From Ruminococcus sp. (lineage in GTDB: Bacteria; Bacillota; Clostridia; Oscillospirales; Ruminococcaceae), in NCBI GenBank assembly GCA_017519415.1, contig JAFWSI010000023.1, positions 1-36,979 on the forward strand: a DNA stretch of 36,979 nt, given 5' to 3'. The translations under genes were made by a program, and so were the position numbers. A model generated the notes under the pieces. That model searched no databases, was not told the DNA's origin, and was given only the letters and a program-made list of their open reading frames with translations. Positions 9,186-36,547 of the stretch are shown here, one piece after another; position 1 is the first letter of the stretch; each line of letters opens with the position of its first letter.

Positions 9186-9204
9186 ACAGATCACCCTTTC
9201 GTAA

Positions 9205-10747: not shown

Positions 10748-10785
10748 TGTAGAGACTCCTTTCGTGTAAGTTCCTGTGTCCTTCA

Positions 10786-10816
10786 CTTATTAGTCGTATC
10801 CCGCTGCCAAAAACAC
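10786..10816 (-). promoter_or_regulatory. Candidate ECF-type (autoregulatory) promoter
   Basis: Between the leader terminator and the sigma gene the minus strand reads GTGTTTTTGGCAGC, then CGACTAATAAG. This is unlike a sigma-A promoter but loosely resembles ECF promoters with a CGTC-like -10. It is about 40 bases upstream of the ATG. Weak evidence; no second copy was found in the window. Confidence 0.25.
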
Positions 10817-11098: not shown

Positions 11099-11224
11099 AA
11101 TTGTAACGATCACCGCAAGATCAAAAATCCTCTATGACAGATTTGAAATGACGCAATACCCTCTATAATGATTAAATTCCAACAACCGAAACCAATCAAC
11201 ATTACACAGAAAAGGAGTTATAGT

Positions 11225-12240: not shown

Positions 12241-13347
12241 CTATATGCTTCCCCGCAGCTTTCCGAGGCTGTCCGCATATCCGGCAAGCTCCTTGTTGGC
12301 AAGGTTCATCTGTCCGAAACTCTTTACCGTGCATATTACACTTCCGCACCTGTCTATCAGCTCCTTTGCCCTGCGTAAGCTTTCTGCGCTTACAGACTCA
12401 AATGACTTTTCCGTTATAAGCTCCGCTGAAAGAGCCGCCGCCACAGGAAAGTCAAGGTCGTTCTCATGTATCACGCCTGCCGCAAAGGCGGTGCCGCGGC
12501 GCTGAAGCATACGGTACATCGGTATGCCGCTTCCTCCTCCGCCTATGACGAACACCTCCGGTCTGCCCGTGACACGCTCTGCCTCGGCAGTACCGAAAAG
12601 CCCGTTGAAGGTGCCGCTTGTCATGGAATAAAGTCCGCTTATGTACCCGTCCGAGAATATATCCTCGGGAGTACCGAGTCTGTCGGCTTTTCCGCTGTGT
12701 ACGCACAGTATCTTATCGGAAAAACGCTGAGCAAGGTCTATCTCATGAAGTGACTGCACCACCGCAATATTTCTGCTTCGTACAAGCTCCCTCAGTACGG
12801 TGAGTAGCCTCAGCTTATTATTTATATCGAGAAATGAAGTCGGCTCATCCAGCAGCATGACCTGCGGCTGCTGGGCTATGGCTCTTGCAAGCATTACCGT
12901 CTGACGCTGGCCGTCGCTGATACAGCGGAAATCCGTATCCGCAAGATAAGCCGTACCTGTCAGTTCCATGGCCTCCCTGACTGCCGCCCTGTCCCCATCG
13001 GTGAGCAGTCCCAGCCTGCCGGTATACGGGTATCTGCCCGTGGAAACTATATCCGAACAGGTCATTTTCTCCGCGTCTATCCTGTCGGTCAGGCAGACAG
13101 AGAGCCTACGCGATATATCGCTTTCTTTCATGGAGGATAAATCTCCGCCGCATATGCTGACCCTGCCGGATATGAGAGGAAGCTGCGCGGCGATGCTTTT
13201 AAGCACCGTGGATTTGCCTGCACCGTTGGGGCCTATTATCGTCAGTATCTCCCCTGCTCTGACCTCAAAGGCAAGTCCGTCCACGACTACCTTTTTTCCG
13301 TATCCCGCCGAGACTCCCTCGGCTCTTAAAACCGTATCCTCCGCCAC
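12241..13347 (-). CDS. btuD: Corrinoid/iron-type ABC importer ATPase with C-terminal extension
   Basis: 368 residues. The first roughly 250 form an ABC ATPase of the BtuD/FecE type: Walker A 'GPNGAGKST' at residue 39, signature 'ISDGQRQTVML', Walker B 'VMLLDEPTSFLD'. The last roughly 110 residues are an extra domain with a Rossmann-like glycine motif ('VFVIGGGGSGIPMYRML') that ordinary BtuD (about 250 residues) lacks. It energises uptake together with the permease and binding protein upstream. Start is GTG at 13347, directly after the TGA of the permease gene, with AGGAGG upstream. Last gene of the riboswitch-controlled operon. The substrate is inferred from the riboswitch and CbiK neighbour; haem or siderophore importers look similar. 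Confidence 0.8.
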   Translation of the reverse strand: MAEDTVLRAEGVSAGYGKKVVVDGLAFEVRAGEILTIIGPNGAGKSTVLKSIAAQLPLISGRVSICGGDLSSMKESDISRRLSVCLTDRIDAEKMTCSDIVSTGRYPYTGRLGLLTDGDRAAVREAMELTGTAYLADTDFRCISDGQRQTVMLARAIAQQPQVMLLDEPTSFLDINNKLRLLTVLRELVRSRNIAVVQSLHEIDLAQRFSDKILCVHSGKADRLGTPEDIFSDGYISGLYSMTSGTFNGLFGTAEAERVTGRPEVFVIGGGGSGIPMYRMLQRRGTAFAAGVIHENDLDFPVAAALSAELITEKSFESVSAESLRRAKELIDRCGSVICTVKSFGQMNLANKELAGYADSLGKLRGSI

Positions 13348-14373
13348 TCAGATCCCCCTCCTCTCCTTATTCCTTCCGAGCATGACTGCAATGACGACCG
13401 GCGCTCCGAATACTGCCGTGACCGTGCTTATGCTCAGCTCCACGGGAGAAAACACCGTGCGTGCTATAAGGTCGCAGGCAAGGCAGAAGGCTGCTCCGCC
13501 CACAAAGGATGCAGGGATTATTACGATCGGCTTTGCGGTACCGAAAAGTCCTTTCATCAGATGCGGAACCGCCACGCCAACAAAGGAAACAGGTCCCGCA
13601 AAGGCGGTAACACAGGCGGAAAGCATTCCGGAAAGAAGTATCAGAGCCAGTCTGAACATTCTGATATTGACGCCCATATTCACAGCATAGCTCTCTCCCA
13701 GCTGATATGCGCTCATGGGCTTGGACAACATGAAAGCTGCTGCCGTGCCCGCAAGAACTATCACCGCTATCACGCGGACATCTGCCATGTCGATACCCGA
13801 GAAGCTGCCCATGGACCAGTTATGGAGATTGACTATGTTGGAATCGTCGGCAAAGGTGACAAACAGCTCCGTAACAGCCGAGCAGATATATCCCGTCATC
13901 ACGCCCGCTATTATGAGCTGAGCCATGTTCCTGACCCTGCCGGCAAAAAGCAGTATCACACCCATGGCAGCGACGGAGCCTGCAAAGGACGCAGCGACCA
14001 TAAGAGCAGAATTCATTACAAAACCGTGCTGAAGCGATACTATCATGGCAACGGCTACCGTCAGCTTTGCTCCCGATGATATGCCGAGAACATAGGGACC
14101 TGCTATGGGATTGGCAAAGAAGCTCTGCAAAAGGTAGCCCGAAACGGAAAGGGCTCCCCCCAGCAGCAGAGCCGCCGCCGCCCTCGGCAGACGTATCTCC
14201 GATACTATCCTGTATGCCGCGGTATCATTGCTTTCACCGGAAAGCGCTTCCGCAACCTCCCTGACCGACAGCCCGCTGCTGCCGCAGACAAGCTCGGTTA
14301 CCGCAAAAAACAAGGTGAGCGCAGTCAGCAGCAAAAAGCATACCGTCCATCTTACAGCTCTCTTACGTTCCAT
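13348..14373 (-). CDS. btuC: BtuC/FecCD-family ABC importer permease
   Basis: 341 residues and strongly hydrophobic, consistent with the ten-helix BtuC fold. Family motifs visible include 'RLPRAAAALLLGGALSVSGYLLQSFFANPIAGPYVLGI' in pieces and 'GPVSFVGVAVPHL'. It forms the membrane channel with the adjacent ATPase. ATG at 14373 has GGAGG upstream. It starts nine bases after the binding-protein gene and abuts the ATPase gene. Corrinoid specificity is inferred from the riboswitch upstream of the operon. Confidence 0.85.
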   Translation of the reverse strand: MERKRAVRWTVCFLLLTALTLFFAVTELVCGSSGLSVREVAEALSGESNDTAAYRIVSEIRLPRAAAALLLGGALSVSGYLLQSFFANPIAGPYVLGISSGAKLTVAVAMIVSLQHGFVMNSALMVAASFAGSVAAMGVILLFAGRVRNMAQLIIAGVMTGYICSAVTELFVTFADDSNIVNLHNWSMGSFSGIDMADVRVIAVIVLAGTAAAFMLSKPMSAYQLGESYAVNMGVNIRMFRLALILLSGMLSACVTAFAGPVSFVGVAVPHLMKGLFGTAKPIVIIPASFVGGAAFCLACDLIARTVFSPVELSISTVTAVFGAPVVIAVMLGRNKERRGI

Positions 14374-14382
14374 ATTTCCTCC

Positions 14383-15531
14383 TCATTCAAGACGGTGCAG
14401 GAAACTCATCTCCTTACCGTCGGCCTGCTGTGAAAAAACAAGCTCAAGGTCGCATATCATGTCCGCCGCTCCCGTTGTCTGCTGGAACATATTCTGTCCC
14501 GTACACCATACGTTTCCGTTCTTTACTGCCTTGCAGTCCGCAAGGACGCCGCATTTCCCGATAAGCTGCTCCACACTGTCAAGCTCGCCTTCAATGGTGC
14601 TGTTGTATATAAGAAAATCCGCATCACGGGCTGTTTCGTAGAAGGTCTCGGTCTGTATATTCATGGTGGACAGAGCGTTATCTTCGATCTTTAGCTGATC
14701 TGCGGTAAATATATAGCTGCCGCCCGCAAGCTCTATCATCTTTGAAATGTAGTCTCCGGGCTTTCTTATGTTCACATAGCCGTTGGAGCTTATATAGAAA
14801 AACGCGGCTGTCTTTCTCTCTCCGTCATTGCGTTCTTTCTTCATAAGCTCATCGAAGCCCTTTGTCTTTTCATTGAAAAAGTCCTCCGCACTCTCTGCGT
14901 CCCCCGTCAGCAGTCCGTAGAGCTTGAGCCATTCCATTCTGCCGAGAGGGTGGGATTCGTAGCTCGAACGCTCCACCAGCACCGGTATGCCCAGCGCCTC
15001 TATCTTTTCCCTTACCTCGGGAGTATGGTATATCATGGTAGACTCTACCGCAAGTCCGCAGTTTCCCGATACGAGAGCCTCGTAATCGGGGGAGCTGTAC
15101 TTGCCTATATAGGCTATTCTGCCCGATCCCACAGCGTCCCTTATATCCGGAAGGCTCCAGTCCTTTTCAGCCGTGGAGGTCATGGCCACCTCATCAAGGC
15201 TGCCTATGCCGTCAAAAAGATCCATTGCCGAGGAAGCTGCAACGTATATGTTCTCAACCGGCTGACGTATTACAGTCACGTCCCCGTCGGTTCCGGGAAC
15301 TTCTGCACCTTCCGGAACGATAAGAAAGCTGTCGTCGCCTATCCTTGCGAGTGAATATCCGCCCTCATAATAGTCCACCGAAAACTGCTCGGCATATCGC
15401 AGCTCCATGCTGCCCGTTTTCACGAGCTGTACCTTTTCGGTGGAAGTCGTTTTTCCCGACTTGCAGGAAAAGCTGCAAAGGCATATGAGACCACAGAATA
15501 CTGCGCAGGTCCTTCTAAGCATATCCGTCAC
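14383..15531 (-). CDS. btuF: Periplasmic-binding-protein-like lipoprotein of the B12-type importer
   Basis: 382 residues of the FecB/BtuF class. A Cys-rich export signal ('AVFCGLICLCSFSC') suggests lipid anchoring, most likely at Cys23, though the lipobox is imperfect. The body shows the two-lobed family pattern ('PVENIYVAASSAMDLFDGIG', 'GRIAYIGKY', 'GLAVESTMIY', 'WLKLYGLL', 'AGGSYIF'). It delivers substrate to the permease. The predicted GTG at 15531 overlaps the TGA of the upstream lipoprotein gene by four bases. An in-frame ATG at 15522 is an alternative; neither has a strong ribosome binding site, which suggests translational coupling. Confidence 0.8.
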   Translation of the reverse strand: MTDMLRRTCAVFCGLICLCSFSCKSGKTTSTEKVQLVKTGSMELRYAEQFSVDYYEGGYSLARIGDDSFLIVPEGAEVPGTDGDVTVIRQPVENIYVAASSAMDLFDGIGSLDEVAMTSTAEKDWSLPDIRDAVGSGRIAYIGKYSSPDYEALVSGNCGLAVESTMIYHTPEVREKIEALGIPVLVERSSYESHPLGRMEWLKLYGLLTGDAESAEDFFNEKTKGFDELMKKERNDGERKTAAFFYISSNGYVNIRKPGDYISKMIELAGGSYIFTADQLKIEDNALSTMNIQTETFYETARDADFLIYNSTIEGELDSVEQLIGKCGVLADCKAVKNGNVWCTGQNMFQQTTGAADMICDLELVFSQQADGKEMSFLHRLE

Positions 15532-16439
15532 GCTATCGACCCGGACACGAAGCAGAGCGTATACTCGATCTCATAGGGCACGCTCATAGCCGTCGTATCG
15601 GCAGATACGGGCATACCGTGATCGAAGCCCGCAACAGGCACCTCGAATACGGAGCTTCCCTCCGTAATAACAGGAAGATACTTTTCTCCGTCCACTATCA
15701 TATAATCGTACTTGTCGCTGCTCCACACTATCTCTGCGGTAGCCTTTCCGTCCTCAACGGTGAGCTTTGCGGGAGAAGCCACAGTGGCTCTGCCGGAGCC
15801 GCCCTCCAGCTCCACCTCAACGGTATACTCGCCGTCGGCAAGTCCGAGCTCCTCGAGGGTAGTGTATCTGCTCTCGGAAAATGCGTCATCGGGCAGTGAA
15901 TCCGCACGGAACACAAGAGTCCTTCCGTACCACTCCTGCTTCTTGGCGCTGAGAGCGGCGCATTGTATCTCCTTGTCGAGAGCCTCAACAGGCACGGTGA
16001 ACACGGACTGTCCCGATTCATTGGAGGTATATCCTATGCATTCCGAGCTGTCTGCGGATTTTGCCTCCTCCTCAGTGCCCATGAACAGCTTATCGTAGGA
16101 CTTGCTGTCTATGATAAGATCGGCGGTAAGCTTCCCGCCGCCGACCTTCAGCACACAGTCTGCTATCTTGAACATCGAAGAGCTGGAATCAACGGAGATA
16201 TGGTATTCTCCTTCCTTAACTACCTCTGCGCCGACAGCCTCCATTCCCTCAAAGCCCACCTTGTTCTGGGGTGCGGTCTCATGCTCTGTGGCAGCCTCAG
16301 TTGCAGCTTCTGTGGTAAGCTCTGCGGTGCTTTCAGTGACGGCTGTCGCTGCCCCGGGAGTTTTTTCAGATGTTGCGGTCTTTGTACCGCAGGACGTAAG
16401 CACTGCTGCGGTCAGGATCAATAATAAGCTTTTTTTCAT
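15528..16439 (-). CDS. Lipoprotein with two tandem beta-type repeats, importer-associated
   Basis: 303 residues. Lipoprotein signal 'MKKSLLLILTAAVLTSCG' (Cys17) and a Thr/Ala/Glu-rich linker precede two related domains of about 100 residues. Each has the order 'GEYHISVDSSSSM / GEYTVEVELEGGSG', 'LTADLIIDSKSYDKLF / ATAEIVWSSDKYDYMI', 'SVFTVPVEALDKEI / SVFEVPVAGFDHGM' and a final 'V/PYEIEYTLCF'-like strand. The pattern resembles NEAT-type ligand-binding beta-sandwiches, but I cannot place it firmly in a named family. It sits between the CbiK-like lipoprotein and the binding protein, so it probably captures or relays a corrinoid, tetrapyrrole or metal outside the membrane. GAGG lies nine bases before the ATG. 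Confidence 0.65.
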   Translation of the reverse strand: MKKSLLLILTAAVLTSCGTKTATSEKTPGAATAVTESTAELTTEAATEAATEHETAPQNKVGFEGMEAVGAEVVKEGEYHISVDSSSSMFKIADCVLKVGGGKLTADLIIDSKSYDKLFMGTEEEAKSADSSECIGYTSNESGQSVFTVPVEALDKEIQCAALSAKKQEWYGRTLVFRADSLPDDAFSESRYTTLEELGLADGEYTVEVELEGGSGRATVASPAKLTVEDGKATAEIVWSSDKYDYMIVDGEKYLPVITEGSSVFEVPVAGFDHGMPVSADTTAMSVPYEIEYTLCFVSGSIA

Positions 16440-16458
16440 ACATTACCTCATATACTTA

Positions 16459-16483
16459 GAACGGGCAGCCGAGACCGCCCGTT
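16459..16483 (-). other. Intercistronic hairpin between the CbiK-like gene and the two-repeat lipoprotein gene
   Basis: AACGGGC (about 16460-16466) pairs with GCCCGTT (16477-16483) in the 59-base gap. No T-run follows, so it is more likely an mRNA stability or processing element than a terminator. Confidence 0.4.
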
Positions 16484-16498
16484 CCGATATTCTTATTC

Positions 16499-17536
16499 TC
16501 ACACAGTCTCTGCTGCCTTCTTGGCATGCTCGATATAGAGCTGTCTTACAGCCTCGTTCTCTCCCAGACCTCTCAGCAGGCATTTTACTTCAAAGCCTTC
16601 TGCTTCAAATGCAGACTTCCATGAGTCCTCGTCGTCGCCTGCCATATCGTTGTTGGCGTGATCGCCCGCAACTACCATAAGAGGCTCAAGAACTACCTTT
16701 TCGTAGCCGCCCGCCTTTACAAGCGCGAGAACGTCCTCCAGTGAGGGCTCCGCTTCAACGGTGCCCACGAAGTAATTGTCGTGGCCGTCAGCCTTGAGGA
16801 GCTCCTGCATCCTGCTGTACACGCCGTTGGACTCAGCCTCTGTGCCGTGTCCCATGAAGCATATAGCGGTCTTGCCGTCATCGTATTCTGAGGTCCAGTC
16901 AACTATCGCCTGCTCAACGCGCTTGAAGTCGTCGTCGCTCGTAAGGAGAGGCTCGCCGAAGACAACCTTGTCAAAGGCGTCGGAATAGCTTCCTGCCTTT
17001 TCGATGAGCTCGTTGTACTCGATACCGTTCATAAGGTGTGTGGGCTGTATCACAAGGTTCTTTACACCATTGTCAACAGCTCTCTTCAGCGCTGCGTCTA
17101 TATCGTCGATGAGTATGCCGTCACGGCGCTCAACATGGTCGATTATGATATTTGCGGTAAATCCGCGGCGTACAGAATAATCGGGGAATGCCTTTTCAAG
17201 TGCGTCCTCGATAGCGCCTATCGTCAGACGGCGGCTGTCGTTGTAGCTTGTACCGAAGCTCACCACAAGGAGCTCGTTCTCGCCTATGCCGTCCTGATTG
17301 CGGACATTGTCGAGAGAAGCGTCGCCTGTATCATAGTTCTCCTCCTCGTCCTCTTCGTCCTCGGGCTCGGCGGTTGTCACGGCTTCTGTTGTGGTCTCTG
17401 CCTCAGTAGCCTCTGTTGCAGCTGTTGTCTCCTCAGCCTTGCTCTCTGAGGCCTTTTCCGAGTCTCCGCAGGCTGTAAAAGCAGCCGCAGCTACTGACAG
17501 TCCCATGAGCATTGCGATGATTTTTCCGTTTTTCAT
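16499..17536 (-). CDS. cbiK: CbiK-like sirohydrochlorin cobaltochelatase with lipoprotein signal
   Basis: 345 residues. An N-terminal lipoprotein signal ('AAAAFTAC', Cys23) and a long Thr/Ala/Glu-rich linker precede a complete CbiK domain from about residue 70. The chelatase His motifs are intact: 'IQPTHLMNG', 'FMGHGTE' and 'VVAGDHANND'. CbiK normally inserts cobalt into sirohydrochlorin in the cytoplasm; Desulfovibrio has a periplasmic form. Here the protein should be tethered outside the membrane, so it may bind or relay a tetrapyrrole or cobalt rather than serve biosynthesis directly. It is first in an operon with a two-repeat lipoprotein and an ABC importer, behind a B12 riboswitch. I chose ATG at 17536; an ATG at 17545 is also possible. 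The longer frame reaching 17791 runs through the riboswitch and is not real. Confidence 0.85.
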   Translation of the reverse strand: MKNGKIIAMLMGLSVAAAAFTACGDSEKASESKAEETTAATEATEAETTTEAVTTAEPEDEEDEEENYDTGDASLDNVRNQDGIGENELLVVSFGTSYNDSRRLTIGAIEDALEKAFPDYSVRRGFTANIIIDHVERRDGILIDDIDAALKRAVDNGVKNLVIQPTHLMNGIEYNELIEKAGSYSDAFDKVVFGEPLLTSDDDFKRVEQAIVDWTSEYDDGKTAICFMGHGTEAESNGVYSRMQELLKADGHDNYFVGTVEAEPSLEDVLALVKAGGYEKVVLEPLMVVAGDHANNDMAGDDEDSWKSAFEAEGFEVKCLLRGLGENEAVRQLYIEHAKKAAETV

Positions 17537-17580
17537 TGTGATCATTTCCTTTCCTTGGAGGCAAAGACCGTGCGCGCAAC

Positions 17581-17608
17581 AAAAAAAGCCCCTGCGCAGG
17601 CAGAAGGC
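17581..17608 (-). terminator. Expression-platform terminator of the cobalamin riboswitch
   Basis: An eight-pair minus-strand hairpin (17588-17608, one bulged base, four-base loop) is followed by seven T. It lies between the aptamer and the ribosome binding site of the CbiK-like gene, so ligand binding probably stops transcription here. Confidence 0.75.
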
Positions 17609-17913: not shown

Positions 17914-17942
17914 ATTATATCAGATTGTTTTTGTTTTTTCAA
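17914..17942 (-). promoter_or_regulatory. Promoter of the riboswitch-controlled transport operon
   Basis: TTGAAA (17937-17942) and TATAAT (17914-17919) with a 17-base spacer. Transcription starts near 17907, about 30 bases before the aptamer. The promoter lies directly after cbiC, with no clear terminator between, so read-through from the biosynthetic operon into the riboswitch is possible. Confidence 0.75.
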
Positions 17943-17986: not shown

Positions 17987-18622
17987 TTACAGCTGTTTTT
18001 GTTTGTCAAGCATATACAGCAGCGCATTGCATATCGCAGCCGCAACATTGCTGCCGCCCTTTCTTCCCCTTGCAACTATGCAGGGTATGCCCGACTCTAT
18101 GAGCATTTCCTTTGACTGCACCACATTCACAAAGCCCACGGGAGCACCTATTACCAGCTCTGGCACAAAGCTTCCGTCCGCGATATGCTCGCACAGGCGC
18201 ACAAGAGCTGTGGGGGCGTTACCCACTGCATATATCACAGGTCTGTCAAGCAGAGCGGCCTTGTCCACGGAGGCTGCCGCTCGTGTGGTGCCGCTGTTTT
18301 TTGCGGTTTCCGCCACGTCATCGTCGGCCATATAGCACACGCATTCGCAGCCGTGACGCGCAAGAGCCCCTTTGTTTATGCCTGCCTTTGCCATATTCGT
18401 ATCCGTCACTATTACAGCTCCGCGGCTGAGTACACCGAGAGCCCTGTCAACTGCATTTTCCGAGAACCAGAGATTATCCGCATAATCGAAATCCGCTGTG
18501 GTATGTATGGCCCTCATCACTATAGGCCTGATCTTTTCGGGTATATCCCTGTCAAGCTCGCTACCGATTATCTCAAAGCTGCGCTTTTCGATCTCCGACG
18601 GCAGCACATATTCAAGCTTCAT
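17987..18622 (-). CDS. cbiC: Cobalt-precorrin-8 methylmutase
   Basis: 211 residues, the normal length. Moves the C11 methyl group to C12, giving cobyrinic acid in the anaerobic pathway. The catalytic His is in 'MRAIHTTADFDYADN' (His40); other family motifs are 'TDTNMAKAGI', 'AVGNAPTAL' and 'GAPVGFVNVVQSKEML'. The start ATG overlaps the TGA of cbiP by four bases, so translation is coupled. It is the last gene of the fifteen-gene operon. No clear terminator follows before the riboswitch promoter at 17914-17942. Confidence 0.95.
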   Translation of the reverse strand: MKLEYVLPSEIEKRSFEIIGSELDRDIPEKIRPIVMRAIHTTADFDYADNLWFSENAVDRALGVLSRGAVIVTDTNMAKAGINKGALARHGCECVCYMADDDVAETAKNSGTTRAAASVDKAALLDRPVIYAVGNAPTALVRLCEHIADGSFVPELVIGAPVGFVNVVQSKEMLIESGIPCIVARGRKGGSNVAAAICNALLYMLDKQKQL

Positions 18623-20088
18623 ACGCCCTCCTCCAGTATCCTGTATATCATTTCCATATCAAGCGCTTTCCGGACACTGTCCGCAAGAATATCCAGCTGA
18701 GCGCTGCGGTATTCTCTTCTGTCCACGGCTTCGCTGTCAAAGCTCAGCCCCTTTTTTTCATAAAGCCTGCGTATAAGTCTTTCCGACACCTCCGCGCTGT
18801 CAAATATCCCGTGAACATAGCAGCCCGCCGCATTTTCCGCGAAGCTTCCGCCGCAGTCCGTGAGAGCGCAGTCTCCTCCGGCGGTCTCGCCCATATGCAC
18901 CTCATAGCCGTAAAACTCTGCTCCCGAAAGGCAGGAGAAAAAGCCCCCGACAGCTCCGAAACGGCCCGTAACCCTTGTCTGCCGCTTTTCGGTGCCGAAT
19001 ACGGTATCGCAGTCAAGGAGCCCCATACCGCTTATGCTGCCCCCCGATTCGCTGCCCAGCGGGTCGGATATGGATTTCCCCATGATCTGATAACCTCCGC
19101 ATATCCCGAAAACCGGGATACCCGCAGCAATGCAGTTCATTACCGCTTCTTCAAGCCCGCTGCTCCTGAGCCACCTCATATCCTCCACTGTGCTCTTGGT
19201 CCCGGGAATGATTATGATGTCGGGCTTTCCCAGAGCCGCAACCCTGCCGGCAAAGCGCACGGATACTCCCTTATACTGCCTGAAAACGTCCACATCGGTG
19301 AAATTCGAGATCTTCGGAAGCCTTATGACCGCTATATCTATAAGGCCGTCCGCAGTGGTCTGCATGAGCTTTTCTGAAAGGCTGTCCTCGTCATCAATGT
19401 CGCAGTCTATATAAGGCACGACTCCCGCGACACGCTTTCCCGAACGCTGCTCCAGTATATCTATGCCGTCACGGAAAAGTGATATATCGCCGCGGAACCT
19501 GTTCACCACAAGTCCCTTCACCATGGAGCGTTCCTCCTCTTCAAGAAGCTGCAGAGTACCTATCAGCTGAGCAAAAACGCCGCCCCTGTCAATGTCTCCC
19601 ACAAGCAGCACGGGAGCTTTTACCAGCCTTGCAAGTCCCATATTGACAATATCGTCTGCCTTCAGATTGAGCTCCACGGGACTTCCGGCCCCCTCGATAA
19701 CGATAATGTCATACTGCCGTGCAAGCGCCGAATATGCAGACATAATATCGGGTATGAGCTCCCTTTTCCTGCGGAAGTATTCGGCTGCCCGCATATTCCC
19801 GCGCACTCTGCCGTTGACTATCACCTGTGACCCCACATCAGTGGTGGGCTTGAGAAGTACGGGGTTCATCAGCGCCGAGGGCTCTATGCCAGCCGCCTCC
19901 GCCTGAAGCGCCTGAGCCCTGCCTATCTCCGCACCGTCGGGAGCAATATATGAATTCAGAGCCATATTCTGCGATTTGAACGGGGCGACAGAATATCCGT
20001 CCTGACGGAATATCCTGCACAGTGCCGCTGTCAGAAAGCTTTTCCCAACATTCGACATGGTCCCCTGAAGCATTATCGCCTTAGCCAT
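18619..20088 (-). CDS. cbiP: Cobyric acid synthase
   Basis: 489 residues, typical. Amidates side chains b, d, e and g of adenosylcobyrinic a,c-diamide using glutamine and ATP. The N-terminal synthetase domain has the modified P-loop 'GTMSNVGKSF' and 'PFKSQNMALNSY'. The C-terminal type-1 glutamine amidotransferase domain has the nucleophile motif 'GICGGYQIMG' and a 'YEVHMGET' segment. The start overlaps the cobD stop by eight bases and the end overlaps cbiC by four. Also named cobQ. Confidence 0.95.
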   Translation of the reverse strand: MAKAIMLQGTMSNVGKSFLTAALCRIFRQDGYSVAPFKSQNMALNSYIAPDGAEIGRAQALQAEAAGIEPSALMNPVLLKPTTDVGSQVIVNGRVRGNMRAAEYFRRKRELIPDIMSAYSALARQYDIIVIEGAGSPVELNLKADDIVNMGLARLVKAPVLLVGDIDRGGVFAQLIGTLQLLEEEERSMVKGLVVNRFRGDISLFRDGIDILEQRSGKRVAGVVPYIDCDIDDEDSLSEKLMQTTADGLIDIAVIRLPKISNFTDVDVFRQYKGVSVRFAGRVAALGKPDIIIIPGTKSTVEDMRWLRSSGLEEAVMNCIAAGIPVFGICGGYQIMGKSISDPLGSESGGSISGMGLLDCDTVFGTEKRQTRVTGRFGAVGGFFSCLSGAEFYGYEVHMGETAGGDCALTDCGGSFAENAAGCYVHGIFDSAEVSERLIRRLYEKKGLSFDSEAVDRREYRSAQLDILADSVRKALDMEMIYRILEEGV

Positions 20089-21115
20089 TCAGACACCTCC
20101 TCAGAGCCTCAAGCAGTATCCTGTTCTCCTCACGCCGCCTAACCGCTATGCGGTAAAAGCCTTTTTCAAGTCCCGAGAAGCTGCGGCAGTCACGTATAAG
20201 GATACCTTCCTCCAGCATTTTTTCCGCAAGTCCGTCAGCGCTTTTTATAAGCAGGAAATTCGCCGCTCCCTCAAAGACCTTTACACCTGCCGAAGCAAGT
20301 CCGCAAAGGAGCTCTCCGCGCTGCGACCCGATATATTCAACAGTTCTTTTTACATATCCCTTATCCTCAAGAGCCGCCCTTCCCGCAGTCTGAGCAGGAG
20401 CGGAAACGCTCCAGAACTGACCGCTCCGCTTTATGAGCTCCGCAGTTCCGACGTCACCGCATAAGGCGTAGCCCAGCCTGAGTCCGGGTATGGCATAGAG
20501 CTTGGTAAAGGCCTTTAGGATGATACAGTTTCCGTTCATATGCTCCCTGAGACTGAAGCTTTCTCCATTCCGCACAAAGCCCAGAAAACACTCGTCACAT
20601 ACCAGCATGATACCCTTTTCCCTGCATTTCTCCGCGATCCTTCTCAAAAGTCCGGGAGATATGAGCCTGCCTGTGGGATTATTGGGAGTGCATAAAAAGC
20701 ATATATCCATATCCTCGTCCAGTCTGCCGAGAATATCTTCCGTCAGTTCAAAGCCGTTGTCCTCGGTGAGGATATGCTCGTATACGGCACAGCCTGCCTC
20801 CGACAGCGCCCGCCCGTACTCTCCGAAGGCAGGGGCGCATATCAAAGCTCTCCGCGGTCTCAGGGCGTGGACGATACGGAATATAAGGTCGTCGGCACCA
20901 TTGCCGCAGACGATGCTTTCCGCGTTTATCTCCTCATATGCCGCGATACTCTCCGTAAGTCCGCGGCAGTACGGGTCGGGGTATCTTTCGATCTCGTCCA
21001 GTCCGCCGAGAAGCGCCCTGCGCACCCCCTCTGGCATACCCAGAGGATTTATATTTGCAGAAAAATCGATAATGGCACCGTGATCGTAAATATTCCCGCC
21101 ATGCTGCTGTATCAT
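20081..21115 (-). CDS. cobD: L-threonine-O-3-phosphate decarboxylase (aminotransferase fold)
   Basis: 344 residues. A PLP enzyme that makes (R)-1-amino-2-propanol phosphate, the linker between the corrin ring and nucleotide loop. The family start 'HGGNIYDHG' and 'DFSANINPLG' are clear; the PLP lysine is Lys205 in 'KAFTKLYAIPGLRLGYAL'. ATG at 21115 overlaps the cbiB stop by four bases and has GGAGG upstream; the in-frame start at 21139 lies inside cbiB without such a site. It could be confused with histidinol-phosphate aminotransferase, but its place beside cbiB and cbiP favours CobD. Confidence 0.9.
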   Translation of the reverse strand: MIQQHGGNIYDHGAIIDFSANINPLGMPEGVRRALLGGLDEIERYPDPYCRGLTESIAAYEEINAESIVCGNGADDLIFRIVHALRPRRALICAPAFGEYGRALSEAGCAVYEHILTEDNGFELTEDILGRLDEDMDICFLCTPNNPTGRLISPGLLRRIAEKCREKGIMLVCDECFLGFVRNGESFSLREHMNGNCIILKAFTKLYAIPGLRLGYALCGDVGTAELIKRSGQFWSVSAPAQTAGRAALEDKGYVKRTVEYIGSQRGELLCGLASAGVKVFEGAANFLLIKSADGLAEKMLEEGILIRDCRSFSGLEKGFYRIAVRRREENRILLEALRRCLNG

Positions 21116-22077
21116 ACAAGACCTCCGTAAATAATACACCTCAGTACCGCCGCTGCAACAAGCATAAACACCGATGAACCGTACATGAGCCTGTTGGCGC
21201 GGGGAATGTCCGCAGCTTCTATCTCTCTGTCGTCATCGCCGATGTAAGGCTTCCTGTGGAGCTCGCCGAAATACTGCGCGTCCCCTGCAAGGCGTACGTG
21301 AAGCGCTCCCGCACAGGCAGCTTCTGTCTGAGCGGAATTTGGACTGGCGTGCTTTCTGCGGTCCCTTTTCCATATCCGAAGAGCATTCCTGCCGTCAAGT
21401 CCGGAAAGCGCCGCACTTGCAGCCATAAGCACCGCCGTTATGCGTGAAGGGATATAATTCAGAACGTCGTCCAGCTTTGCGGCTGCTCTGCCAAGCTCAG
21501 AATATTTCTCGTTCCTGTAGCCAATCATTGAATCCATGGTATTCACCGCTTTATAGAGTGCTCCCAGAACCGCTCCGCCTATGCCCATATAAAAAAGGGG
21601 AGCCGTTACGCCGTCCGAGGTATTTTCCGCCACTGTCTCCACAGTCGCTCTGATTATGCCGTCGCGGTCCAGTACGTCCGTGTCCCGTCCGACTATCATG
21701 GATACGGCTTTTCTTGCTTTTTCCGTATCGTTTTCCCGTACTGCCCTGTACACCTTCATGCTCTCGCTGCACAGACACCTCGCCGCCGTAAGATAGCAGC
21801 ACAGGACGCTCTCAGCAGCTATGCCGAGTATGATATTGAGCCTGTAGCAGCAGAAAAGGACTGCCGCAGGAACTGCCGCAGATACAGTGCAGACCGTGAC
21901 CGCAAGGAAAACGCCGCCTCTGCGGAGACTGCGGAACCGTTTCCTTACAAAGCCCTCAAGGGCTGATATGAGCCGTCCTATGAGCCTTACGGGGTGAGGG
22001 AGGCTGTAGGGGTCACCTATGGCTGCGTCAAGTATAAAGCCTATGACAAGGGGTAAAGCAGGTATAAAGAATCTCAT
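21112..22077 (-). CDS. cbiB: Adenosylcobinamide-phosphate synthase
   Basis: 321 residues, an integral membrane protein. Joins the aminopropanol (phosphate) arm to adenosylcobyric acid. Family motifs: 'DAAIGDPYSLPHPVRLIG' near the N-terminus, 'VETVAENTSDGVTAPLFY', 'NTMDSMIGYRNEKY' and 'LDDVLNYIPSR'. Several hydrophobic segments are spread through the sequence, including the C-terminus. The start overlaps cobC by four bases and the end overlaps cobD by four. Confidence 0.95.
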   Translation of the reverse strand: MRFFIPALPLVIGFILDAAIGDPYSLPHPVRLIGRLISALEGFVRKRFRSLRRGGVFLAVTVCTVSAAVPAAVLFCCYRLNIILGIAAESVLCCYLTAARCLCSESMKVYRAVRENDTEKARKAVSMIVGRDTDVLDRDGIIRATVETVAENTSDGVTAPLFYMGIGGAVLGALYKAVNTMDSMIGYRNEKYSELGRAAAKLDDVLNYIPSRITAVLMAASAALSGLDGRNALRIWKRDRRKHASPNSAQTEAACAGALHVRLAGDAQYFGELHRKPYIGDDDREIEAADIPRANRLMYGSSVFMLVAAAVLRCIIYGGLV

Positions 22078-22634
22078 ATTCGCTCCGTAACAGTAAGTTT
22101 ATTTCCGTTCCATTCGCAGACCCAGCCGCTGCCGTTTGGAAGCTGCCAGTCAAAATAGTCCTTATGGGGAAAGGCGTATTTTTCCAGCACAGACATTACC
22201 GTGCCGCCGTGGACAACAAAGGCAGCCGACTCTGCTCCGCTGTGAGCGTACAGGATCTGTTCAAAGGCCTCCTTGCTTCGCCTGCGGAAGTCCGCAGGCA
22301 CCTCTCCGTGCGGGAATGCCGCCTCACCTCCGCTGTCGATCCAGCTCTGATATTCGGCAGAGCCCGAGAGCTCCTTATAGTTTTTTCCTTCAAACTCACC
22401 GAAATCGCATTCCCTCAGTCCGTCGGCAATAATCGGCTGCTGACCGGGATATATGACAGCTGCTGTCTCTGTGCAGCGCTTCATGGGACTGCACACAAGA
22501 AGCTCACAGCGGGGATATTTCTTTTCTGAAAGAGCTCTTATGCCCTCGTTGCAAAGAGACTCGTCGGTAACGCCTATATATCTCTTTTCCATATTGCCCG
22601 CAGTCATGCCGTGGCGTATGAGAACTATCTTCAT
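22074..22634 (-). CDS. cobC: Alpha-ribazole phosphatase-like histidine phosphatase
   Basis: 186 residues. Histidine phosphatase with catalytic 'IRHGMTAGN' (His8), 'CSPMKRCTETA', acid residue region 'RECDFGEFEGKNY' and second His in 'FVVHGGTVMSVL'. It should remove the 5'-phosphate in nucleotide loop assembly, from alpha-ribazole phosphate or from adenosylcobalamin phosphate. ATG at 22634 overlaps the cobS TGA by four bases; the longer frame to 22715 has no ribosome binding site. The position between cobS and cbiB supports CobC over a generic phosphoglycerate mutase homologue. Confidence 0.9.
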   Translation of the reverse strand: MKIVLIRHGMTAGNMEKRYIGVTDESLCNEGIRALSEKKYPRCELLVCSPMKRCTETAAVIYPGQQPIIADGLRECDFGEFEGKNYKELSGSAEYQSWIDSGGEAAFPHGEVPADFRRRSKEAFEQILYAHSGAESAAFVVHGGTVMSVLEKYAFPHKDYFDWQLPNGSGWVCEWNGNKLTVTERI

Positions 22635-23401
22635 TTCATCACTTCCGTTATCCTTTCGGAAAATACAGCCGCCGCAAGTATCCATATCTCGCACAGCTGG
22701 AGGAACCAGCCGCACAGATCCCCTGTTATGCCGCCGAAGCGGCGGTAGGAGGAGTACCTGTGATATGCCATGACAAGCAAGGCGGCCAGTGCTGCTGCAG
22801 CGCCCTGTACCGGCAGCAGTACCGTCTGCACAGCGATACCTGCCGCCGCAGACGCTATATCCATTGCAAGTGTTATGTTCCTGTGTGCGGGACGGACAAA
22901 GCTCTGAAGAGAGCCGTCCTTTTTTGCAGACCTGAAGGTAACGGCAGATACGGCGCTGAGCCCGCGTGAAACCACATATCCCGCAGCGATAACTGCTGCC
23001 GTTTTCATGGAATCCACCTGAGTAAACAGAGCAGTCTGAATAATAAGGTATACGCAGAGGCTTATCACAGCAAAGGAACCTATATGGGGATCCTTCATTA
23101 TCTCAAGGCTCCTCTCCCTGTCTGCACAGGCAGCTCTTGCGTCGCTGACGTCGCAGAAGCCGTCAAGATGTATTCCGCCCGTCACAATTATGGGGATAAG
23201 CACTGCTCCACCTGCAAAAAGAAGCTGTCCGATCTCAAGGCGATCGCATACAAAGCGCCACAGCAGCAGAAGTCCTCCCGTCACAGCACCCACAAGGGGA
23301 AAAAATCCCAGGGCATAGCGGCGGTTCTCCTCCTTCCATTCCGTTTTCGGAACGGGTATGCGGGAATACATGAGAAAAGCGGAAAAAAACGATCTCAGCA
23401 C
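22631..23401 (-). CDS. cobS: Adenosylcobinamide-GDP ribazoletransferase (cobalamin synthase)
   Basis: 256 residues, membrane-embedded. Joins adenosylcobinamide-GDP with alpha-ribazole (phosphate). Family features: 'FLMYSRIPVP' at the N-terminus, 'GFFPLVGAVTGG', 'GGIHLDGFCDVSDA', 'IMKDPHIGSFAVI' and late helices ending near 'GGITGDLCGWFLQLCE'. Start is GTG at 23401 with AGGAGG six bases upstream; it overlaps the cobU stop by seven bases. The in-frame ATG further upstream at 23443 lies within cobU without a site. Confidence 0.9.
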   Translation of the reverse strand: MLRSFFSAFLMYSRIPVPKTEWKEENRRYALGFFPLVGAVTGGLLLLWRFVCDRLEIGQLLFAGGAVLIPIIVTGGIHLDGFCDVSDARAACADRERSLEIMKDPHIGSFAVISLCVYLIIQTALFTQVDSMKTAAVIAAGYVVSRGLSAVSAVTFRSAKKDGSLQSFVRPAHRNITLAMDIASAAAGIAVQTVLLPVQGAAAALAALLVMAYHRYSSYRRFGGITGDLCGWFLQLCEIWILAAAVFSERITEVMK

Positions 23402-23916
23402 GGCCTGCCTCCTTTCAGGATAACGGGTATGCCGTAAACACATTCCACCACATTGTCCGCAAGGGCTGCGATACCGGTGTTTATCGCCCCGAGCTCCGAA
23501 ATATATTCGGCTGTGCCCTCCGGATAGGGGACTCCGTCAGCTCCCACCTGATTTGTGACTATCACTGTCTCCGCGGCATTTACAGTAAGGGCTTTTATGC
23601 CGCTCAATATCTTCTCTGAACAGGACTGCACAGTCCTGCCCTGAAACATCTCATTAGCGCAGAGATTGCCTATGCACTCAACAAGCACTCCGCAGCCCGG
23701 CGGCAGTGACAGCTCGCCTATATCCGTATATTTTTCAATCGTCTCGAAGCCCTTGCCACTGCGCAGAAGGCGGTGCCGCTCTATCGCTTCAAGGGCGTCG
23801 GCGCCGAAGGGCTTCATGGCTGCAATATAGAATTTCCTGCCTTGAAAGCCTTCAAGTATCTTCTCGGCATACCACGATTTTCCGCACTTTGAGCCGCCTG
23901 TAACAAGTGTTATCAT
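23395..23916 (-). CDS. cobU: Adenosylcobinamide kinase / adenosylcobinamide-phosphate guanylyltransferase
   Basis: 173 residues, close to the usual 180. Phosphorylates adenosylcobinamide and adds GMP. P-loop 'GGSKCGKSWYAE' at residues 7-14, 'YIAAMKPFGADALEAIERHR' with the guanylylated-histidine region, 'LVECIGNLCANEMF' and 'IVTNQVGADGVPYP'. The start overlaps the cobT stop by four bases. Confidence 0.95.
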   Translation of the reverse strand: MITLVTGGSKCGKSWYAEKILEGFQGRKFYIAAMKPFGADALEAIERHRLLRSGKGFETIEKYTDIGELSLPPGCGVLVECIGNLCANEMFQGRTVQSCSEKILSGIKALTVNAAETVIVTNQVGADGVPYPEGTAEYISELGAINTGIAALADNVVECVYGIPVILKGGRPC

Positions 23917-24962
23917 CTGAGTTCAGCATACCTTTCTATCGAAGTATCGTCAAATCTGTGAGAATTATAATACAGAGCAAGAGCTCCGTCAAGCAGCGGC
24001 ACAAGGAGAGCTCCTCCCGTGCCCTCTCCAAGCCTGAGACCCGCTCTTATCACGGGCTCAAGGCCTATGCAGCGGAGCAGGCCCTCCCCCGCGGGCTCCG
24101 ATGAGCAGTGGCTCGCAAGCATATACTCTCCGCATACAGGCGCTGTCCTGTATGCCACGGCGGCAGCCGCCGCCGATATTACACCGTCTATTATCACGGG
24201 AACATGGTAATAAGCCCCACCGAGGAACAGTCCCGTCATGGCTGCGATCTCAAAGCCGCCAAGCTTGCCGAGGAGCTCCAGCGGCCTGTCTGGATCGGGA
24301 GAATTCACCTCAATGGCACGTCTTACAGCCCTTATCTTTCGTTCCAGTCCCTCCGACGAGAGCCCCGCGCCCCTGCCCGTAGTCTTTTCCGGTTCCATGC
24401 CAAGCAGTACGGAGGCAATCGCGCTTGCAGATGTGGTATTGCCGATACCCATTTCACCGGTTATTATCAGCTTTGTGCCCTCAGCCGCCAGCTCTCCGGC
24501 AATATCCATTCCAGTGATCACCACTCGTTCCGCCTGCTCCTGAGACATAGCCCTGCCGACAGCTATATTGTCTGTACCGCAGGCTATCCTCCTGTTTATC
24601 AGGGAGGGACAGTCAATTTCCGAGGCGATGCCCATATCCACAGCCATGACGTCTATGCCGAACTGTGCTGCCACAGCGTTTATATTGGAGCGTCCCTCCG
24701 CAATAGCCTTTGCACATTCAGCTGTCACCCCACTGCCGCACTGAGTCACTCCCTCACATACCACACCGTGGTCGGCGCACATAATTACCGCCGTCCTCTT
24801 TGATATATCCGGCTTATCGGTACGCTGTACAGCCGCTATCCTCTCCACCGCCTCTTCAAGGAGACCGAAGCTCCCGAGAGGCTTGGCTATGCTGTCCCAG
24901 CAGGACTTTGCCGCGGCGTATGCTTCCTTGTCTGCGGGTATTATCTTACGTATGCGCTCCAT
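23913..24962 (-). CDS. cobT: Nicotinate-nucleotide--dimethylbenzimidazole phosphoribosyltransferase
   Basis: 349 residues, typical. Makes alpha-ribazole phosphate from nicotinate mononucleotide and a benzimidazole or other lower-ligand base. Motifs: 'AKPLGSFGLLEE', 'CADHGVVCEGVTQCG', 'GEMGIGNTTSASAI' and the active-site region 'RLGEGTGGALLVPLLDGAL', which contains the catalytic Glu. ATG at 24962 has GGAGG five bases upstream and overlaps the cbiA end by 17 bases; the alternative TTG at 24992 is less likely. No base-synthesis genes (bza, bluB) are in the window, so the native lower ligand cannot be told. Confidence 0.95.
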   Translation of the reverse strand: MERIRKIIPADKEAYAAAKSCWDSIAKPLGSFGLLEEAVERIAAVQRTDKPDISKRTAVIMCADHGVVCEGVTQCGSGVTAECAKAIAEGRSNINAVAAQFGIDVMAVDMGIASEIDCPSLINRRIACGTDNIAVGRAMSQEQAERVVITGMDIAGELAAEGTKLIITGEMGIGNTTSASAIASVLLGMEPEKTTGRGAGLSSEGLERKIRAVRRAIEVNSPDPDRPLELLGKLGGFEIAAMTGLFLGGAYYHVPVIIDGVISAAAAAVAYRTAPVCGEYMLASHCSSEPAGEGLLRCIGLEPVIRAGLRLGEGTGGALLVPLLDGALALYYNSHRFDDTSIERYAELR

Positions 24963-26283
24963 TCTTTCCTCCGTATTCACAGCATTTCTCAACGAATCTC
25001 ACGGCCATGCCGGTATCTGAATAAAAATAGAAATGCGGAAATCCCGCGTAAATGCTCCCGCCTGTATGTCCGCATTCCCAGCTCCTGCCGTCGGACTTTT
25101 CAGCAAGGAAGTCCGCGCCGCAGTCTGTGCTGTCCCAGTAGTGGAACTCATGGGCTTTCAGGGAGCCTCCCTTTCCGCACAGAAGTCCGTCCTCACGTGC
25201 CGTCACGGTGATATATCCGAACCTTCGGAGCCTTTCCGTCGGAAATGTTCTGCCCTTTATCACTCCCGCCATGGGATATGTTTTCCCGCTTTTATCCGTC
25301 ATTTTCTCATGGAGATACATAAATCCGCCGCATTCGGCCATAACGGGCATACCCGAGCATATCCTCTCCCTTATGTCCGCAAGCATGGAAGCATTGGCAG
25401 ACAGCTCCGCTCCGTACAGCTCCGGATAACCGCCGCACAGCAGCAGTCCGTCAGCCCCGGGCAGATGCTTGTCCGAAAGAGGAGAAAAATACTCTGCTTT
25501 GCAGCCCATTTTTTCAAGCAGTCCGATATTTTCATGGTATAAAAAGCAGAAGGCACTGTCATAAGCTACTGCGATCACGGGCTCCGAGCCGAAACGCGGT
25601 ATCCGCGGAGCCCTGTACTCCGGCAGCGGAATATCGGGCAGACCGAGAAGCCCGTCCAGGTCTATGTACTTTTCGGCCAGCTCTCCAAGCCTGTCCAGTT
25701 TCTCATTTATGTCAGCTATCTCCCCGGGCATGACAAGTCCGAGATGTCTGCTCTCGAGAGCCGCTCCGTTCTGCGGAAGAAAGCCGAAATAACCCGTGCC
25801 CAGCTCTGCGCAGAGCTTCCTTTCAAGGGGCTCCAGCCTTTCGGGAAGGCAGTCAAATACAAAGCCTGCGATATTATTCGGACGGTAGCTGAGAAATCCC
25901 CGCATTACCGCTCCTATGGAATCGCTCATTCCCTTGCAGCCGATAACCATGATGACCGGCGTATCCGTCAGCTGCGAAAGGGCATGGGCCGAGCCCTCCG
26001 CTCCGTCATAGAAGCCCATTACGCCCTCTATTACCGAGAGCTCACGGCTCCCTCCGTACTCGTCAAGGAGGTAAAGAAGAGTATCCCTGCCGCAGAAGAA
26101 GCTGTCAAGATTATGGACGTCGGTACCCAGTGTCCTTCTCAGGAACATGGGGTCTATGTAGTCGGGTCCGCACTTGAATGCAGCAAGATCGGTGCCCCGC
26201 TTTTTCAGTGCCGAAAGAACAGCACAGGTCACGGTGGTCTTGCCGCAGCCGCTTCCCGTTCCCGCTATGATGAACCGTTTCAT
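24946..26283 (-). CDS. cbiA: Cobyrinic acid a,c-diamide synthase
   Basis: 445 residues, typical. Amidates the a and c carboxylates of cobyrinic acid with ATP and glutamine. N-terminal P-loop 'AGTGSGCGKTTVTCAV', 'AFKCGPDYIDPMF' and 'VIEGVMGFYDG'; C-terminal glutamine amidotransferase domain with nucleophile motif 'MAECGGFMYLHE'. ATG at 26283 has GGGAGG five bases upstream and overlaps the cbiET stop by four bases; the longer frame to 26385 lies within cbiET. Confidence 0.95.
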   Translation of the reverse strand: MKRFIIAGTGSGCGKTTVTCAVLSALKKRGTDLAAFKCGPDYIDPMFLRRTLGTDVHNLDSFFCGRDTLLYLLDEYGGSRELSVIEGVMGFYDGAEGSAHALSQLTDTPVIMVIGCKGMSDSIGAVMRGFLSYRPNNIAGFVFDCLPERLEPLERKLCAELGTGYFGFLPQNGAALESRHLGLVMPGEIADINEKLDRLGELAEKYIDLDGLLGLPDIPLPEYRAPRIPRFGSEPVIAVAYDSAFCFLYHENIGLLEKMGCKAEYFSPLSDKHLPGADGLLLCGGYPELYGAELSANASMLADIRERICSGMPVMAECGGFMYLHEKMTDKSGKTYPMAGVIKGRTFPTERLRRFGYITVTAREDGLLCGKGGSLKAHEFHYWDSTDCGADFLAEKSDGRSWECGHTGGSIYAGFPHFYFYSDTGMAVRFVEKCCEYGGKNGAHT

Positions 26284-27470
26284 GACAGCCTCCCGCTTAT
26301 GATGAATACCGGATTCTGAGCCCGGAGCATGGTATGAGCTCCTATCCTTTCTGTCCTTGTGACGGCTATCTGCGTTACCTCGCATTCCGCTCCGTACTGT
26401 CCGAATGCCTCCGCTGTATCCCTGAGGGTCTCAAGGGATACGGCTGCCGCGGCTATATCCGCCTTTGGATTGGCTCTGTATACCGCTTCAAGTATATCCT
26501 TCATATTGCCGCCGCTGCCGCCTATGAACACCTTGTCCGGAGGCTCAGCACCCGCAAGCACGGCGGGACACTCGCCCTCCTGTACTATGATATTGTCACA
26601 GCCGAAGGCTGCCGCATTTTTCCTCGTTAGCTCTGCCGCTTCCGCATTCCTGTCAAAGGCCAGCACCTTTCCGTCGGCGCACCTGTAAGCGGCTTCCACC
26701 GATACCGAGCCCGTGCCGCAGCCTATGTCCCATACCACGGAATCAGAGCATATATCCAGCTTTGCAGCTGCTATGCACCTTACCTCGGATTTGGTCATTG
26801 GTATCCCGCCGCGTATGAAGCTCCCGTCGCTGACAGCCGAGGGAATATGCCCGATAAACTGCGGATTGTATACAACAGCCGCAGCAAGCCTGCCGAAGCT
26901 GCCGTCCCTGAGGCTCCCTGCTGTTCCGCTTACTATACGCTCTCCTTCATATCCCAGCTCCTCGCCGATATGCACCGTGACCTCCGGCAGGCCGTATGCC
27001 GCAAGGCGGCTGCAAAGGCCTGCCGCTGTCATTTCTCCGCCGAGAAGGAAGAAGCAGTACTCATTCATCATCACATTCACGGCTATGTTGCCGTTCTGAC
27101 CGTGAAGGGACACAAACTTCATTTTTTCATAGGAGATACCCGTCTTTGCGCAAAGGTATGCTGCCGCCGATATTCCGGGAACCGTCTCCGTATCATAGTC
27201 ACCGAGCAGCGGCAGAAGCTTTTTTGTGCCGCTGAAAAAACCGCAGTCCCCGGACATGAGCACAGCCGCAGTATCCTTTCCGCAGCTGCGAAGAGCTTCG
27301 GCTATCTCCTGCGGGATATAGCTGCATAAGGTCTCCTTGCCGAGCTCCGCAAAGGGAGCGAGCATACGCTTCGCACCTATAAGGAGCTCCGCCTCCGTGA
27401 CAGCCTTCCACCCCTCGCGGGTAAGAGTATTCCTGCCGTCCATGCCGATACCTACGATATACACCTTCAT
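26280..27470 (-). CDS. cbiET: Fused cobalt-precorrin-7 C5-methyltransferase / cobalt-precorrin-6B C15-methyltransferase (decarboxylating)
   Basis: 396 residues. The N-terminal half (about 1-200) is a tetrapyrrole methylase, CbiE ('MKVYIVGIGMDGRNTLT', 'VVLMSGDCGFFSG'-like, 'VSLHGQNG'). The C-terminal half (about 205-396) is CbiT, a Rossmann methyltransferase ('MTKSEVRCIAAAKL', SAM motif 'DIGCGTGSVSVEAA', 'FIGGSGGNMKDILE'). Two S-adenosylmethionine-dependent steps and the C12 acetate decarboxylation are thus in one chain, like CobL of the aerobic route. It overlaps cbiJ and cbiA by four bases each. Confidence 0.95.
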   Translation of the reverse strand: MKVYIVGIGMDGRNTLTREGWKAVTEAELLIGAKRMLAPFAELGKETLCSYIPQEIAEALRSCGKDTAAVLMSGDCGFFSGTKKLLPLLGDYDTETVPGISAAAYLCAKTGISYEKMKFVSLHGQNGNIAVNVMMNEYCFFLLGGEMTAAGLCSRLAAYGLPEVTVHIGEELGYEGERIVSGTAGSLRDGSFGRLAAAVVYNPQFIGHIPSAVSDGSFIRGGIPMTKSEVRCIAAAKLDICSDSVVWDIGCGTGSVSVEAAYRCADGKVLAFDRNAEAAELTRKNAAAFGCDNIIVQEGECPAVLAGAEPPDKVFIGGSGGNMKDILEAVYRANPKADIAAAAVSLETLRDTAEAFGQYGAECEVTQIAVTRTERIGAHTMLRAQNPVFIISGRLS

Positions 27471-30720: not shown

Positions 30721-30721
30721 T

Positions 30722-31849: not shown

Positions 31850-31915
31850 TACTGATCCCACCGTTCGGTAAAACCGCCGCAGCCGCCCATGCAGCCGCAG
31901 CATTCTCTGTAAATT

Positions 31916-36449: not shown

Positions 36450-36547
36450 GAACATACATATAGATATATATTCACATTTGGGGGAATACTAAATTCCATT
36501 CTTATTACACTGCAAAAAATGCAGACAGAATTAAAGGAGTGATTTTA

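Follow-up and report, generated by a model that had tools for sequence, protein, structure and literature searches.

A conserved chelatase–NEAT–importer module behind a cobalamin riboswitch suggests that Ruminococcus-related gut bacteria finish and take up a B12 building block from other microbes

What might a tetrapyrrole chelatase of the CbiK family do outside the cell membrane, encoded beside a second lipoprotein and an importer? The question is raised by contig JAFWSI010000023.1 of Ruminococcus sp. (assembly GCA_017519415.1; host genome 75% complete), of which positions 1–36,979, hereafter the window, were analysed. Five genes lie on the minus strand, preceded by a promoter-like site, a cobalamin riboswitch and a terminator-like hairpin, in that order; they encode a lipoprotein CbiK, a two-repeat lipoprotein, a binding protein, a permease and an ATPase, the last three of the FecBCD/BtuFCD superfamily. 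This conserved B12-controlled module suggests that Ruminococcus-related gut bacteria complete a B12 building block made by other microbes and take it up. Judged from sequence, a B12-repressed surface relay and importer that feeds the cell's own corrin pathway, with CbiK inserting cobalt into a scavenged precursor, is an account to which we would give close to, though short of, an even chance.

Relatives were drawn from a first collection of 197 genomes of the bacterial family and from a second comprising the best 80 of at least 590 relatives (at least 598 stretches); only loci most similar to the query were kept in the latter, so shares among these 80 loci do not equal shares in nature. The window CbiK (16499..17536, minus strand; an alternative in-frame start is possible three codons upstream, at 17545) has a signal peptide whose lipobox, MKNGKIIAMLMGLSVAAAAFTAC, passes the screen for lipoproteins and places the candidate lipidated residue at Cys23, followed by an acidic Thr/Ala/Glu linker; the 64 residues between this cysteine and the CbiK domain hold 23 Asp/Glu and 3 Lys/Arg, bearing out the lipoprotein signal and acidic linker claimed in the original prediction. 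The domain itself spans residues 89–342 (Pfam CbiK, E 7e-81, 271.8 bits against a cut-off of 26.2). Salmonella CbiK requires the catalytic residues His145 and His207 (available part of PMC7689651), which align with H230 and H293 of the window protein, and the chelatase histidines are thus intact, as had been proposed. Both are invariant across 22 aligned lipoprotein CbiKs, and the catalytic histidines are retained in 98/98 lipobox CbiKs examined, a set from which six CbiKs failing the lipobox rule, one of them cut by a contig end, were put aside. With its Pfam domain and these histidines the protein is classed as a member of the class II tetrapyrrole chelatase family; it scores 228.3 bits against the NCBIfam equivalog SiroCoChCbiK, which represents the biosynthetic enzyme and has a cut-off of 400.

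The second gene (15528..16439, minus strand) encodes a lipoprotein in which two repeats had been noted and left unclassified. The repeats are confirmed as homologous (hhalign probability 98.2, E 4.9e-14), and the fold comparison that had been proposed against NEAT domains finds the NEAT fold, so the label 'unclassified' can be dropped: by modelled fold the protein is made of two NEAT domains. Repeat 1 (approximately residues 75–182; 15894..16217, minus strand) is delimited by structure model and repeat comparison and aligns to tandem-NEAT chains with poor root-mean-square deviation, and repeat 2 (approximately residues 198–302; 15534..15848, minus strand) carries an [HY]xxxY motif at 289–293. 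The Pfam NEAT model gives 21.6 bits on the window protein, under its 32.8 cut-off (E 3e-4), and reaches E 0.01 or better in 13 of 15 relatives, the best at 1.1e-10. The signal, judged by eye, ends in LTSC (C17) and fails the charge rule of the lipobox screen, with Pfam LPAM_1 below its cut-off; among the stand-alone NEAT proteins of the second collection, 50/68 pass the lipobox rule.

The NEAT structures matched by this lipoprotein are haem carriers, which favours an Iht/FetB-like haem or porphyrin system, in which CbiK would remove or swap the haem metal, NEAT would carry haem, and porphyrin or iron would be imported. FetB has been reported to exchange porphyrin metals, and the closest architecture, the Iht system of Porphyromonas gingivalis, is read as haem/iron uptake in the available part of PMC10913741. 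Several features make this account improbable here: a cobalamin riboswitch is found on 13 of the 14 module loci scanned, all 22 module carriers of the first collection possess CbiD, and position 289, the first of the NEAT ligand motif, is His in 44/51 sequences and Tyr in 7/51, with Tyr293 invariant. The haem-ligand motif of NEAT domains is YxxxY.

In the window the aptamer (RF00174; 17680..17889, minus strand) scores 91.5 bits against a gathering score of 31.5, and we infer that B12 represses the five genes through it. The promoter-like site TTGAAA-17-TATAAT (17914..17942, minus strand) agrees with 11/12 consensus positions and is a consensus match only; the hairpin, which separates the aptamer from the gene for CbiK and carries a T run (17589..17606, minus strand), was recognised by pattern scan, and a wider leader stretch folds with z −2.73, but its minimum-energy structure does not contain the terminator-like hairpin. 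Downstream of the two lipoproteins lie the BtuF/FecB-type substrate-binding protein (14383..15531; Pfam Peripla_BP_2, E 8.5e-26; no PDB sequence relative at E 0.1), the BtuC/FecCD-type permease (13348..14373; Pfam FecCD, E 1.2e-74; PDB relatives FhuB, HmuU and BtuC) and the BtuD-type ATPase with a C-terminal extension (12241..13347; Pfam ABC_tran), all on the minus strand. The prediction of a cobalamin riboswitch ahead of a BtuFCD-type importer therefore holds, Peripla_BP_2, FecCD, ABC_tran and the riboswitch all being present. The same arrangement would suit import of finished corrinoids (cobamides or cobinamide), with CbiK as a surface receptor that binds corrinoids or tetrapyrroles, NEAT as carrier and the losses of upstream genes described below as ordinary decay, an explanation that we hold to be unlikely but far from negligible. 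The best NCBIfam matches of ATPase ('corrinoid ABC transporter ATPase' PRK09536, 222.9 bits, under a cut-off of 537) and permease (BtuC, 196.8 bits, under 334) are corrinoid ones.

Co-occurrence, also proposed as a check, was found: within the first collection CbiK is present in 70/197 genomes, the two-repeat lipoprotein in 28/197, and lipoprotein CbiK and NEAT genes are neighbours in 22/197, with BtuF and BtuC near the pair in 20 of these 22 (G035 has BtuF only, G181 neither). Matches to the two-repeat lipoprotein family (P0002) outside modules, in G002 and weakly in G071, G101, G113, G147 and G193, were left uncounted. Among the best 80 loci of the second collection a lipobox is found on 74/80 CbiKs, a NEAT open reading frame (ORF) in 75/80 loci, and the complete order CbiK-NEAT-BtuF-BtuC-BtuD in 52/80, many of the others being cut by contig ends or fused; hosts include R. 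flavefaciens ND2009, Y1 and YL228 and many gut Oscillospiraceae and Lachnospiraceae. Recurrence of the CbiK-NEAT pair in 22/197 genomes and most of the best 80 loci is beyond chance. Furthermore, CbiK and NEAT form a single protein in 3/80 of these loci and NEAT is fused to the binding protein in 7/80, fusions that respect the gene order of the operon, as a hand-over chain would predict; further ORFs flagged as fusions, with 10 to 17 bit matches to signal or linker stretches, were not counted. Synteny, operon-order fusions, the NEAT fold and the kept histidines together support the earlier suggestion of a surface relay acting before uptake.

The module also appears mobile. Two genomes from different genera (G012, L068:2738-9267; G038, L073:7406-13936) share, at 98.5% identity, a 6,538 bp block that contains little beyond the module. 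Since their fetched flanks are unlike, the five genes seem to move together, in what looks like a recent horizontal transfer of the module alone. In G181, which has another module, a further NEAT stretch interrupted by an in-frame stop (L176:1-964, G181:C34; L061) adjoins a BtuF-like gene behind CbiP, which looks like a decaying older copy. Several CbiKs without a NEAT partner adjoin FecCD/BtuD-type importer genes (L064, L067, L102, L108, L127), and the link of transporter to chelatase may extend beyond the NEAT modules. A further BtuFCD-like set lies directly before the cbi operon on G038:C14 (L177:3255-6804), in a genome without CbiL or HemC.

Which cargo such a relay would carry is approached through the corrin genes of its hosts. 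Directly upstream of the module in the window lies a corrin pathway cluster running from CbiD to CbiC (17987..31903, minus strand: CbiC, CbiP, CobD, CbiB, CobC, CobS, CobU, CobT, CbiA, CbiET, CbiJ, CbiH, CbiG, CbiF and CbiD), in which neither CbiL nor another chelatase was found; the 75% of the genome that is present likewise contains no CbiL and no other CbiK/CbiX. Among the 22 module genomes, 21 have no other CbiK/CbiX, the exception being G012 with a second CbiK, and stand-alone CbiX occurs in none (0/22). The earlier suggestion of metalation outside the cell thereby gains indirect support, from the sole CbiK/CbiX being the exported one in 21/22 module genomes while CbiD is kept.

Earlier steps are depleted. 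Against 38 controls (CbiD-positive genomes without an exported CbiK), HemC was found in 6/22 carriers, one copy cut by a contig end, versus 23/38 (p 0.017, phylogeny ignored), and in 10/50 further carriers taken from the best 80 loci, which may share species with the first 22; R. flavefaciens ND2009, Y1 and YL228 yielded no HemC match. CobA exceeds its cut-off in 5/22 carriers versus 14 of 16 controls that we chose from the 38, and CbiL is absent at E 1e-15 in 10/22 carriers versus 0/16 of the chosen controls (G035 and G130, matching CbiL below its cut-off, were counted as positive). The SirC-type family NAD_binding_7 exceeds its cut-off in 26/26 genomes and was counted only at E 2.5e-20 or better (8/26), weaker matches (E 9.7e-9 or worse) being taken for other nucleotide-binding proteins; a strong SirC match is thus present in 6/22 carriers. 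HemC, CobA over cut-off, strong SirC and a second CbiK/CbiX are all missing in 15/22, of which 13/15 are at least 90% complete, and these genomes, with CbiD kept, show the pattern of precursor salvagers. The ten CbiL-less genomes have four TP-methylase matches each, five in G000 and G019, corresponding to CbiF, CbiH, CbiET and a putative RsmI, plus CobA in G000 and G019; the first four were assigned by place, frame length and elimination, with two G028 matches not read. A CbiD tree of 26 genomes requires at least seven changes of CbiL state, four of them forced by well-supported branches, although this is a gene tree and exchange of cbi clusters could add to the count. The branch of the G124 CbiD (L180:9696-10772) is very long, at 3.1 changes per column, and the other cbi genes of that genome score low, which suggests a fast-evolving or replaced cluster.

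This selective loss bears on finished corrinoids as cargo, since ordinary decay would not be predicted to leave exactly the post-CbiL steps untouched, yet CbiD is kept in 22/22 carriers and the places of CbiF, CbiH and CbiET are filled in the ten CbiL-less genomes; the catalytic histidines present in every lipobox CbiK examined also tell against this cargo. The CbiL product, cobalt-factor III, is the substrate of CbiH (available part of PMC8123684), and a cell that keeps CbiH to CbiP and has lost the earlier steps has to acquire whichever compound CbiL or CbiH acts on. Given that the sole remaining CbiK-type enzyme bears a signal for export, cobalt insertion outside the cell followed by import of the product is the simplest account. 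As to the ligand, on which the earlier suggestion did not settle, the gene content makes an early B12 precursor more probable than haem. Neighbours would supply a metal-free isobacteriochlorin, either sirohydrochlorin or, where CbiL has been lost, sirohydrochlorin methylated at C20 (factor III); on this reading, the compound traded in the latter case could only be C20-methylated. The lipoprotein CbiK would insert cobalt into the isobacteriochlorin outside the membrane, the tandem NEAT lipoprotein would hand the resulting cobalt-tetrapyrrole over to the BtuF-like protein, and import through BtuCD would deliver it to CbiL or CbiH. Taken as a whole, B12 completion by surface cobalt insertion into isobacteriochlorins shed by neighbours, with NEAT transfer to a dedicated importer, is put forward as a tentative proposal, on balance rather unlikely.

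A number of observations weigh against the precursor relay. The cargo could be haem or a finished corrinoid, corrinoid uptake being in keeping with the riboswitch, and haem with the NEAT domains and the Iht analogy; the ligand of binding protein and permease is not assignable by sequence. HemC is also missing in 15/38 controls without the module, so its loss is not specific and auxotrophy alone does not need the module. The comparisons for CobA and CbiL used the 16 self-picked controls, SirC was counted without controls, the gene-loss tests are uncorrected for phylogeny, and several genomes are incomplete. G012 has both routes: besides the module it has CbiL, a cytoplasmic CbiK and a partial HemC. 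Met8 and CysG, for example, are relatives of SirC that can act as chelatases as well. The window genome itself keeps a hemA-sirC-hemC-cobA/hemD-hemB-hemL operon (HemC, CobA and SirC recognised by matches, the other hem genes, hemA, hemB and hemL, by eye) and so departs from the full precursor-salvager pattern; by eye this operon adjoins genes for sulfate assimilation, so the organism can probably make sirohydrochlorin for siroheme, and it is a weaker case for precursor import. G019, a relative of the window genome that is 100% complete, has the same pattern. In G000 (C74, L165) and G019 (C32, L166) hemA, sirC, hemC, cobA/hemD, hemB and hemL lie amid sulfate uptake and reduction genes, as if dedicated to siroheme.

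Strong SirC-type matches in six of the 22 carriers, and the fact that an unknown enzyme escapes any genome search, leave room for cobalt insertion inside the cell by an unrecognised chelatase, with the lipoprotein CbiK serving as a cobalt-scavenging or storage protein; this is considered very unlikely, and would leave the NEAT proteins, the fusions and the loss of HemC, CobA and CbiL unexplained.

The expectation that CbiK is normally cytoplasmic needs qualification, in that exported homologues, Desulfovibrio vulgaris CbiK-P and P. gingivalis IhtB/FetB, were already known. In a tree of 59 full-length CbiKs of the bacterial family (fragments and rows under 200 aligned residues excluded; a second tree also excludes four long-branch rows and CbiK-P), 24 pass the lipobox screen, namely the 22 module CbiKs and those of G067 and G185, which have no NEAT neighbour, while the remaining 35/59 have no lipobox, one of them being cut at its start. 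All 24 rows of lipoprotein CbiKs from the family fall into a single clade (99/93). Cytoplasmic-type CbiKs of the same family are the same enzyme family and differ in the absence of a lipobox and in a gene that often adjoins CbiD. The CbiKs of G006 (L105) and G145 (L106), nearest sisters of the lipoprotein clade, have a hydrophobic N-terminal segment and no lipobox, possibly an intermediate stage of export. Exported FetB (PDB 9b86) places elsewhere in the tree, which tells against the haem system, although a single clade with the lipoprotein CbiKs is not rejected (p-AU 0.104).

The likeness to P. gingivalis Iht (IhtABCDE), which combines a CbiK-like lipoprotein with binding protein, permease and ATPase and which the available text of PMC10913741 describes as hardly characterised, is limited by its outer-membrane TonB receptor in place of a NEAT protein and its haem/iron uptake reading; no TonB-dependent receptor was found among the ORFs of the window operon. 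D. vulgaris CbiK-P (PDB 2xvx, 2xvz), described as a periplasmic cobaltochelatase in the accessible part of PMC4063343, shares the CbiK fold and histidines and lies on a different branch of the CbiK tree. Isd-type NEAT relays (IsdX1, IsdC, IsdH, Hbp2) share the tandem NEAT fold and a gene ahead of a FecCD-type importer; the module differs in its B12 riboswitch, in pairing or fusing NEAT with a chelatase and in [HY]xxxY rather than YxxxY. Such haem relays are under iron control; to our knowledge, CbiK-P has neither a NEAT partner nor an importer operon, and IhtB and FetB are presumably one protein. Precursor salvagers (Shelton et al. 2018, PMC6461909), so far defined by missing genes in the part of that paper available, also keep the corrin pathway without early tetrapyrrole steps; salvage is described there for ALA and UroIII with no importer named, and in module genomes the gap extends past CobA, SirC and the cytoplasmic chelatase, and in 10/22 past CbiL. 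The NEAT relay, the riboswitch, the tie to the corrin pathway and different hosts set the module apart from these relatives. In the open-licence literature, no paper joining CbiK, NEAT and corrinoid, or NEAT domains and cobalamin, and none on an extracytoplasmic sirohydrochlorin lipoprotein, was found.

The module offers a compact candidate uptake route with a sharp ligand prediction, in cultured rumen strains. If the precursor relay is real, factor III would be a previously unrecognised public good, a central biosynthetic chelation would have moved outside the cell, NEAT domains would handle a non-haem ligand, and P. gingivalis IhtB/FetB would be an analogue; the B12 puzzle of P. gingivalis, a species reported to be without the steps leading to precorrin-2 (available part of PMC6461909), would become testable.

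Elsewhere in the window, cellulosome-type genes flank both sides, with two glycosyl hydrolase family 11 genes (5289-7469, the first, with a dockerin, and 36539-36979, both plus strand) and dockerin proteins at 7803-9194 and 32109-33707. Next after an ECF sigma factor comes a Thr/Ser-rich protein that has a hydrophobic segment and no Pfam match (9205-10786, minus strand for both), by eye perhaps its anti-sigma factor. Facing the end of the module is a flavodoxin-fold FMN reductase (11168-12169, plus strand), and G096 has a relative close to its cbi cluster (L178:16643-17656).

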